DNA of 43,391 bases. Origin: a virus. The stretch lies in the IMG/VR virus record IMGVR_UViG_3300048996_000109, positions 1 through 43,391 of that record, one strand, 5' to 3'. A model generated the notes under the pieces. That model searched no databases, was not told where the DNA came from, and worked only from the letters and a program-made list of their open reading frames with translations. Positions 34,050 to 42,470 of the stretch are shown here, piece by piece (within the stretch, counting starts at the first letter, position 1; every line of letters begins with the position of its first letter). Position numbers and translations under genes: made by a program.

Positions 34050-34298
34050 TCAGGCCGCGTCGGTTGTCGTCTGGTTGGTGATGAGTTGGAGGTGTCGGCG
34101 TTCGTCGTCGCGTACGTCGTCGTCCCAGACCCATCCGTCGATTCCTGAGAGGAGGTCGGCGCGGTGTTGCGCCTGTTGGGTTGGGGACCAGTGAGGTGCG
34201 GGCCGTTCGTGGGGCTGTGCGGGGCGTGGGGGGAGTGCGTGGCCGAAGGTGCCGGTGGGGATCTGTTCGGCGGCGAGGCGCTCGTACGGGCCCGTCAC
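34050..34298 (-). CDS. Small unknown early protein
   Basis: 82 residues from GTG 34298, overlapping the previous stop (GTGA). Pro/His-rich middle (GTFGHALPPRPAQPHERPAP) and acidic end (DGWVWDDDVRDDERRHLQLI). Coupled to the gene downstream of the initiator, so it may assist replication. This is only positional evidence. Confidence 0.68.
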   Translation of the reverse strand: MTGPYERLAAEQIPTGTFGHALPPRPAQPHERPAPHWSPTQQAQHRADLLSGIDGWVWDDDVRDDERRHLQLITNQTTTDAA

Positions 34299-34660
34299 GG
34301 GGTGGCTCCGAAGAGGTCGAGCTGATCGGCGCGCGCGGTATCGAGCTGCGGGGTGGCCTCGGTGGGTTCCTGGTGGCCGTCGGGCTCGTCGTCGAGAGCG
34401 CTCTGTTCGGCGAGCCAGGCCTGTCCCCGGGGGCTGGCCTTCCAGTCGGCGAGCATGCGCTGGCCGAGGTTGGTGAGCGCCAGGCCGTCGCCGTCGTCGG
34501 CGAGGAGGTCGCACCAGACGCAGGCGACGGCGTTGTTCGATACGCCGCTGACCCGGTACCGCTCTTGGTCGTACCTCAGGGTTCCGGCCTCGGCGTCGAG
34601 GAGCGATGGGAGGTAGTACCAGGTCAGTTCTTCCGGGGGCTGCTCGAACTTGAAGGTCAT
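34295..34660 (-). CDS. Unknown early protein following the initiator
   Basis: 121 residues; ATG overlaps the initiator stop (ATGA). N-terminal TFKFEQPPEELTWYYLPSLL, then LRYDQERYRVSGVSNNAVAC, CVWCDLLADDGDGLALTNLG and LADWKASPRGQAWLAEQ. The C-terminal ~30 residues end in QLDLFGATP, resembling the short clamp-binding motif Q-L-D-L-F found in many replication proteins. That would tether it to the host sliding clamp. The motif is visible; the interaction is inferred. Confidence 0.72.
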   Translation of the reverse strand: MTFKFEQPPEELTWYYLPSLLDAEAGTLRYDQERYRVSGVSNNAVACVWCDLLADDGDGLALTNLGQRMLADWKASPRGQAWLAEQSALDDEPDGHQEPTEATPQLDTARADQLDLFGATP

Positions 34661-35451
34661 GACGCGTTCCTCTCGGCTCGGCGTTGGCAGGAGGTGTGGA
34701 TGGTGCGGCCGGGGCGTTGGGGGTCGGGTGCGATGGGGTCGCCGCAGTCCGAGCAGCGGGTCCACTGGCGTTTGTTCTCGGGGAGATCGCTTTCGCCTCG
34801 CGCGCCCACGCGGACCGGTGGTTGCGGTGAGAGATCAGCCGAGTTGTGGTCTGGGAGCGGGTCCCTACCGGAGGTAGGTAGGTACTGGTAGACCCCCGCG
34901 ACGGACGCTGTCCGGACCGCGTCCACTGACGCTTTCCGGGGGCGTCCATGGACGCTGTCCGGGGTGCTCTCAGAGGGTTCGGAACCCCCGCCACGGACGC
35001 TGTCCGGAACCCCCGCTGTTGACGCTGTCCGGTGAGCGTCCGTGGACGCTGTCCGGGTGAGCTCCTCGGCCTTCTTCTTCGCGTACGCCTTGCGCTGCCG
35101 GGTGTCCGTGACGTGGTGAATGTGGGCCTCCCACGCCAGGCGGCCCGTGGGGATGAGCAGCTGGTAGACCGTGGAGGCGTTCGGCCGGCGCTTGCGGGTG
35201 AGGACTCCGACGCCCATCAGGACCTTCACGGAGCGGGTGACGGTCTCCTGCGAGCAGCCGGACAGGGTGGCGAGGGTCTCGCGGGCGGGGAACGAGTTGG
35301 AGCCGTCGGCGTCCGCGTACGTGGAGATCCACATGCCCACGGTGACGACGCGCGCCACCTCGGGGATGGTGCGGCCGACGCGCAAGACCTCTGCCCTGAG
35401 GGCGTTTGTCCAGGCGTTGCGGACGCTCTGCACGCGGTCTTCGTTGCTCAA
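34657..35451 (-). CDS. Replication initiator-like winged-helix protein
   Basis: 264 residues from a TTG at 35451 (GTG at 35433 is an alternative). A winged-helix domain occupies about residues 30-100 (VARVVTVGMWISTYADADGS, RETLATLSGCSQETVTRSVKVL, VYQLLIPTG), of the kind found in phage replication initiators and DnaD-like loaders. The centre (132-185) is encoded by six iteron copies and is low complexity. A C-terminal zinc ribbon (C233, C236, H252, C255) follows. As in lambda O, the origin probably lies inside the gene. A weak hairpin precedes the gene at 35503-35531. Confidence 0.82.
   Translation of the reverse strand: MSNEDRVQSVRNAWTNALRAEVLRVGRTIPEVARVVTVGMWISTYADADGSNSFPARETLATLSGCSQETVTRSVKVLMGVGVLTRKRRPNASTVYQLLIPTGRLAWEAHIHHVTDTRQRKAYAKKKAEELTRTASTDAHRTASTAGVPDSVRGGGSEPSESTPDSVHGRPRKASVDAVRTASVAGVYQYLPTSGRDPLPDHNSADLSPQPPVRVGARGESDLPENKRQWTRCSDCGDPIAPDPQRPGRTIHTSCQRRAERNAS
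34904..35056. repeat. Iteron array, probable replication origin
   Basis: Six copies of GACGCTGTCCGG (one with TTT for TGT) start at 34904, 34928, 34951, 34996, 35021 and 35045. Spacings are 24, 23, 45, 25 and 24 bases, so the copies lie roughly one to two helix-turn pairs apart and fall in two reading frames (read as R-T-A-S or P-D-S-V). Inverted GCGTCC/GGACGC words link some copies. The DNA, not the peptide, is therefore conserved, the mark of an initiator-binding origin. Confidence 0.82.
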
Positions 35452-35555: not shown

Positions 35556-35783
35556 TCAGTCATGGATGCGTCCGATCTGGTAGGCGTCGCCCGCTTCAGC
35601 GGCTTGCTGCTGGAGGGCGGCCTCGGCGCAGACCTTGTGTGCTGGGCTGCGCTTGGAGTCACGGAGGTGGGTGAAGTGGCCGCAGTAGCGGCACGGCCGG
35701 GGCCGCGGGGACCAGTGCGAGGAGTCGCGCCAGTCGAGGAGCGCGCCCGGCGGCGGTGCGCGTCGCTCGCGGCGCGCGGTCAT
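35556..35783 (-). CDS. Small CxxC/His protein following WhiB-like gene
   Basis: 75 residues, ATG overlapping the WhiB-like stop (ATGA). Basic Pro-rich start (TARRERRAPPPGALLDW), then a zinc-type pattern CRYCGHFTH and KVCAEAALQQQAAEAGDAY. The C-x2-C-G-H-x-x-H and a later C could bind one zinc. No name is known to me. Co-translated with the WhiB-like protein. Confidence 0.72.
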   Translation of the reverse strand: MTARRERRAPPPGALLDWRDSSHWSPRPRPCRYCGHFTHLRDSKRSPAHKVCAEAALQQQAAEAGDAYQIGRIHD

Positions 35784-36043
35784 CCGGAGCCCTGGCGGCG
35801 TCGGAGGAGCGTGCGTTCCCTCGCGGAGAGCCCACCCCACACCCCGTGCGGCTCGGGCCTGGCGAGCGCATATGCGCGGCACTCAGCGATGACGGGGCAG
35901 GGGCCGCAGACGGTCCGCGCGGTGCGCGAGGTCTGGCCGGTCTCGGGATAGAAGAGGTCCGGGTCGGTCTGCGCGCACAGCGCCTGAGCGCGCCAACCGT
36001 GCGCAGGCTGCACCGTGTCGGGGGCGTGGGGCGCGGTCGTCAC
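35780..36043 (-). CDS. WhiB-like iron-sulphur transcription factor
   Basis: 87 residues from GTG 36043 (GTGA overlap with the previous stop). Cysteines C23, C46, C49 and C55 have the WhiB spacing that holds a 4Fe-4S cluster, and GVWGG is at 67-71 followed by a basic tail (RERTLLRRRQG). WhiB proteins bind the primary sigma factor and redirect transcription. Phage copies, such as that of TM4, can lower host whiB2 expression and affect septation. The role here, likely early takeover of host transcription, is inferred. Confidence 0.93.
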   Translation of the reverse strand: MTTAPHAPDTVQPAHGWRAQALCAQTDPDLFYPETGQTSRTARTVCGPCPVIAECRAYALARPEPHGVWGGLSARERTLLRRRQGSG

Positions 36044-36234
36044 TGTCCGGCCTCGGCGTCCCACTGATCCGCCACATGCCGCAGGACGTACGCGGCGGCT
36101 TGCTTGCTGAGCCCCTTGGCGGCGGCCTCGATGGAGACGCCTCCCTCGGTCGAGCCGGGGCGGATGATCACGAAGGCCAGAGCATCAGTGCCGTCAACGG
36201 CCACCATGGTGACGTCCGGCTCGGGAATGGTCAT
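36040..36234 (-). CDS. Small unknown protein
   Basis: 64 residues, ATG overlapping the previous stop (ATGA). A beta hairpin (VTMVAVDGTDALAFVIIRPG) followed by an amphipathic helix (IEAAAKGLSKQAAAYVLRHVADQWD). Nothing catalytic. Probably a small accessory of the recombination/WhiB part of the operon. Confidence 0.7.
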   Translation of the reverse strand: MTIPEPDVTMVAVDGTDALAFVIIRPGSTEGGVSIEAAAKGLSKQAAAYVLRHVADQWDAEAGQ

Positions 36235-42398: not shown

Positions 42399-42440
42399 CT
42401 CCTAAAGCGGGTGTCGCAGGTTCGAATCCTGCCGGGGGCA
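42399..42440 (+). other. attP core: 3' part of tRNA-Arg (CCT anticodon)
   Basis: The sequence reads as a tRNA from the anticodon loop CTCCTAA (42399-42405, anticodon CCT) through the 3' anticodon arm, variable loop, T-stem GCAGG/CCTGC (416-420 and 428-432 of this line), T-loop TTCGAAT, acceptor strand CGGGGGC (433-439) and discriminator A. The 5' half is missing: the bases before (ACTTT) do not pair with AGCGG. It is thus not a tRNA gene but the crossover identity block shared with a host tRNA-Arg. Confidence 0.85.
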
Positions 42441-42470
42441 CAGACCTGCTTGGCTGGTCAAAGCAGTAGA

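Follow-up and report, generated by a model that had tools for sequence, protein, structure and literature searches.

Frame-independent iterons within a probable replication initiator gene of a Streptomyces-type prophage suggest an intragenic phage origin

We identified an array of six short DNA repeats within the gene for a probable replication initiator in an IMG/VR virus record of 43,391 bp (the window, on whose whole length all coordinates are given). The repeats are very probably the initiator's own iterons, candidate sites that would form the core of an intragenic phage replication origin. This reading draws on the array itself, its conservation as DNA, its replacement in relatives, its spacing pattern, a covarying inverted repeat and the predicted domain layout of the protein. 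The record resembles a temperate phage, with genes for an integrase, terminase, portal, exonuclease VIII and a WhiB protein, and represents a Streptomyces-type prophage. The origins of actinophages are poorly mapped. Origins made of iterons inside an initiator gene are an already known kind; in the open-licence literature searched, nobody seems to have recognised the present family as one.

The array and the protein encoded across it

The preliminary description had listed six copies of one 12-mer (Table 1). Five match GACGCTGTCCGG exactly, and the copy at 34928 (GACGCTTTCCGG) is a variant with one mismatch. The start-to-start spacings of 24, 23, 45, 25 and 24 within the array proved correct when the positions were checked, and no further exact copy of the 12-mer lies elsewhere in the 43,391-bp record. 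On the minus strand, which encodes the gene, the 12-mer reads CCGGACAGCGTC, and translation confirmed the two reading frames that had been proposed, four copies encoding R-T/K-A-S and two encoding P-D-S-V. When the codons of the gene were shuffled synonymously, preserving the protein, near-copies of any 11-mer numbered at most 4 across 40 shuffles, versus the 6 observed. In the window's other main open reading frames, near-copies within 300 bp never exceed 3. The predicted site is partly palindromic and about 13 bp long (CC-GGAC-AGC-GTCC). A second palindrome, GCGTCC-RY-GGACGC, arises across some of the inter-iteron linkers, both in relatives and here at 34942-34955 and 35036-35049, and half-sites may be read in both orientations.

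Table 1. Coordinates of the initiator gene, its predicted domains, the iterons and the flanking inverted repeat
Feature	Position	Strand	Basis or remark
Gene of the probable replication initiator, 264 aa, start codon TTG	34657..35451	-	HTH_36, PHROG matches, model
Winged-helix domain and long helix, residues 10-142	35026..35424	-	model, pLDDT mostly >80
Disordered linker, residues 143-230, where most of the array lies	34762..35025	-	model, pLDDT mostly <55
Cys-rich, zinc-finger-like C-terminal domain, residues 231-263	34663..34761	-	model, Cys/His pattern
Iteron, exact GACGCTGTCCGG	34904..34915	+	
Iteron, variant GACGCTTTCCGG	34928..34939	+	
Iteron, exact	34951..34962	+	
Iteron, exact	34996..35007	+	
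Iteron, exact	35021..35032	+	
Iteron, exact	35045..35056	+	
Inverted repeat CCTACC-NNN-GGTAGG, 6-bp stem	34864..34878	.	conserved, compensatory changes in relatives

The gene had been proposed to encode a winged-helix protein, and Pfam, the PHROG replication-initiation families and an AlphaFold model agree on this assignment. The Pfam match is to HTH_36 (2.2e-05, just under the curated cut-off). The best PHROG match is family 391, 'replication initiation O-like' (1.8e-9); PHROG 1032 and 8102 also matched. All of these span mainly the winged helix, a domain common to transcription factors. The AlphaFold model (mean pLDDT 74.6) resolves a winged helix, a disordered linker and a small C-terminal domain, the Cys/His pattern of which points to zinc binding. 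A sequence search of the PDB returned no match to the protein, and fold matches had low TM scores, with a winged helix as in MarR-type regulators. The commonness of this fold among such regulators invites another reading, namely that the repeats are operators through which a winged-helix transcription factor binds its own gene and regulates transcription rather than replication, as would also suit the lack of a strong AT-rich tract at the array and of a recognised replication partner gene next door. We consider this unlikely, however, given that replication initiators are the best family matches of the protein and that an array of 4-8 phased sites midway along a coding region, far from the gene start, better fits an origin. 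Self-repression would, moreover, be compatible with origin function.

Conservation as DNA and replacement of iterons in relatives

Homologues were collected from IMG/VR and GTDB genomes, mainly of Streptomyces but also of Kitasatospora and Amycolatopsis. Some 30 homologues from actinobacterial prophages have arrays of 4-8 iterons in the corresponding part of the gene (positions ~385-640). In nearly all full-length homologues the iterons fall in two or three frames (a third-frame copy is also present in L015, L021 and L036), and shuffles mostly gave no more than 4-5. Codon usage follows the repeats as well: ACA accounts for 54 of 72 Thr codons inside iterons versus 28 of 543 in the remainder of these genes, and GCG for 73 of 76 Ala codons versus 355 of 1066, counts that are descriptive only because related sequences are not independent. 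The frames and codons of these ~30 homologues match the prediction of the preliminary description that the 12-mers would be conserved at the DNA level while the peptide drifts and show that what is kept is the iteron DNA rather than the peptide. A search of IMG/VR that used only the DNA pattern and took no account of the protein returned 17 stretches, 15 of which encode an initiator homologue. The other two (L054 and L057) were set aside as single pairs 24 bp apart in unrelated genes.

The location of the array within the protein might suggest instead that the repeats are a repetitive peptide (R-T-A-S / P-D-S-V) of a low-complexity linker, with the DNA likeness left over from recent duplication. 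The array spans residues ~132-183 and falls mostly in the part of the gene for the linker, which is indeed disordered and of low complexity, and duplication can create repeats within a gene. Yet a single 12-mer occupies two or three frames, the array does not arise in synonymous shuffles, the rare codon ACA is kept, and wherever relatives differ in the DNA repeat at this site, the peptide differs with it. The peptide explanation is largely refuted by the frame and codon tests, and we regard it as extremely improbable. Under the origin reading, the array, being mostly encoded in a disordered linker, would be tolerated by the protein in any frame.

The iterons themselves have been replaced in several lineages. 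One branch (L016, L024, L025, L037, L038 and L040-L043) carries the site CGGA-ACC-CGTYC or a close variant, and the core reads AGT in L023 and AGG in L022. The other iterons found at the same place in relatives are CCGGAACCCGTCC, GGAAGTCGTCC, ACCTGCGGGGT, ATTCACCGGAC and ATTCACCGCTC, the last three belonging to distant homologues whose repeats are unrelated to those of the window (ACCTGCGGGGT in L026, ATTCACCGGAC in L027, and ATTCACCGCTC in L029 and also in L044, the latter from Amycolatopsis). Residue position 68 of the protein separates genes with a CAG core (Q, A, P, T or K) from those with an ACC core (D or E), as do many other positions; the link between recognition helix and iteron core is confounded because descent explains the split at position 68 equally well. 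Short homologues whose proteins have no linker (L028, L046 and L047) also have no array. Natural series of this kind, in which both iterons and initiators have changed, provide material for studying the joint evolution of binding specificity and of binding sites that also encode protein.

A tblastn search of INPHARED detected no close phage homologues, and the distant ones were in mycobacteriophages only. phiGD34-2 gp53 has five iteron copies in three frames, IdentityCrisis gp55 has five copies and phiGD21-1 gp54 has six, whereas Sparky gp81 has no clear array. The hosts of the array-bearing phage homologues include Mycobacterium smegmatis and M. abscessus. Three mycobacteriophage genes with iteron arrays (L048:3983-4837, L068:1429-2328 and L069:1432-2364) are annotated simply as HTH DNA-binding. 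These are probable initiators with internal origins. In this family, Streptomyces prophages and IdentityCrisis, which infects the laboratory strain M. smegmatis mc2 155, offer sharp candidate origins within the initiator gene.

Phased spacing, a covarying inverted repeat and a proposed mechanism

Start-to-start distances in the main iteron family cluster at 23-25, 32-35, 43-48 and 58 bp (the spacings of 11-13 bp in the same scan come from matches shifted onto the palindromic linker), and the other iteron families give 21-23, 32-34, 44-47 and 57 bp. Successive clusters differ by roughly one turn of the helix, and the steps are not multiples of three; no formal significance is attached to them because the lineages are related. 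Such a pattern would suit protein copies aligned along one face of the DNA.

The inverted repeat lies beyond the last iteron in the sense of the gene and has the fuller form CCCTACC-NNN-GGTAGGG. It is kept in most genes of the Streptomyces branch regardless of the iteron core and is missing in L024 and L043. Compensatory variants include TCTCTACC/GGTAGAGA in L009 and L013, CCCTACT/AGTAGGG in L042 and CCACCCC/GGGGTGG in L018. Across 22 sequences, two-sided changes affect 5 of the 7 stem pairs versus 0.5 in shuffles, and controls with the stem slid along the sequence fail. The GC content of the family averages ~62% at the inverted repeat versus ~70% over the remainder of the gene, a dip beside the array that is weak (about 62-67% versus 70%) and unlike the AT-rich tract of lambda.

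Covariation of the flanking repeat, together with the palindromes formed by the linkers, could also indicate that the iterons and inverted repeats function in single-stranded form or in the transcript and not as initiator sites, for example by forming hairpins that serve antitermination, control of the mRNA or loading of primase. We consider this very improbable, because single-strand folding of the flanking repeat was no better than in shuffles (z -1.4, 0.35 and -1.0). Recognition of the iterons as duplex is indicated instead, since the 12-mer is fixed while spacing and linker vary between copies. Given its unremarkable folding energy, the flanking repeat could be either a duplex dyad or a hairpin, with a role perhaps in strand opening or primase loading.

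For the proposed intragenic origin we infer that the protein binds, the origin fires, the strands open and host factors are recruited. The N-terminal domain of the initiator would bind each ~13-bp double-stranded iteron in its own gene, and several copies of the protein would stack in phase with the helix. They would then open the neighbouring segment, which has a slightly lower GC content and contains the inverted repeat, and recruit a host helicase or primase, perhaps via the Cys-rich C-terminal domain. More tentatively, and with considerable doubt, we can picture a widespread family of actinobacterial phage replicons, with the present array as its type case, that swaps its iterons between lineages, keeps a frame-free, helically phased array (joined in the Streptomyces branch by the covarying inverted repeat) and starts replication without a phage helicase loader, the Cys-rich C-terminal domain and the inverted repeat jointly recruiting the host replisome.

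Comparison with known initiators and genome setting

An initiator-type winged helix encoded together with frame-independent DNA repeats would place the gene, by its sequence, in the broad kind of phage iteron initiators with an intragenic origin. In lambda and Stx phages, iterons of proven function lie in the middle of gene O, and their number varies, extra iterons adding linker residues (PMC7466680). The likeness to the lambda O gene and origin drawn in the preliminary description is valid for the architecture, an initiator with iterons in the centre of its own gene. Frame independence, which the same description had singled out as special, is not new, because the annotated iterons of lambda (spacings 20, 24 and 23) occupy all three frames of gene O (0, 2, 2 and 1, as computed here). 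At one mismatch, the array of the window stands out more clearly in the shuffle test than the proven iterons of lambda. Unlike lambda O, the window initiator has another iteron sequence, a Cys-rich C-terminal domain and a conserved inverted repeat next to the array. The Phage_rep_O domain (PF04492) is absent from the window protein, whereas lambda O matches it at 5.7e-36 with the same library. With neither this domain nor a recognised P-like neighbour nor a strong AT-rich tract, we did not file the protein in the lambda O family.

Plasmid and extrachromosomal systems offer further parallels. The N-terminal domain of pSK41 Rep recognises four central Rep boxes in rep, and the central part of the protein encoded by ori is dispensable (PMC5703833). 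This staphylococcal RepA_N protein resembles the window initiator in the central placement of its binding sites and differs in its setting, a plasmid of a low-GC host, and in fold, the similarity being weak. Fold matches of the window protein in the PDB do include an 'initiator' (4pt7) and a 'Rep-DNA complex' (5kbj), which we take to be of RepA_N type. Pfam returned no RepA_N (PF06970) match in the window protein (E<=1e-3) or in L016, L026, L029, L041 and gp53 (E<=0.01). The RepA proteins of the mycobacteriophages Miko, Rachaly and Jeeves are HTH initiators sufficient for autonomous replication of extrachromosomal prophages; that study found no repeats and suggested a lambda-like origin inside repA (PMC7157519). 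They share with the window an actinophage HTH initiator and an origin possibly inside its gene, but those prophages are extrachromosomal and no repeats were found in them, whereas the window record has repeats and an integrase. Finally, RepA of the Streptomyces theta plasmids pFP1, pFP11 and pWTY27 was shown to bind iterons (PMC3583192). The host group is the same, but plasmid matches to the window protein are weak and at the HTH level only. The origin of pSLA2 is phage-like.

Within the scanned subset of open reading frames we recognised neither a helicase nor a primase or polymerase. The genes neighbouring the initiator include no recognised P-like helicase loader, though one may lie elsewhere in the genome. 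The gene that follows the initiator differs in every relative examined, so this neighbour is not conserved. In the window it is an open reading frame (34295-34660) ending in QLDLFGATP, the QLDLF of which resembles a beta-clamp-binding motif; we dropped this motif as part of the mechanism because it was not found in relatives. A GC-skew switch was likewise rejected as a marker of the origin: the skew does not clearly change sign at the array, and almost every gene lies on one strand. A gene for a WhiB-like regulator (35780-36064) lies close upstream of the initiator, and WhiB-like genes are found near it, on either side, in several relatives too. Just after the integrase gene, the sequence GGTTCGAATCC at positions 42400-42441 looks like the 3'-terminal part of a tRNA gene. 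ARAGORN found no complete tRNA there, and the stretch is plausibly the attachment site.
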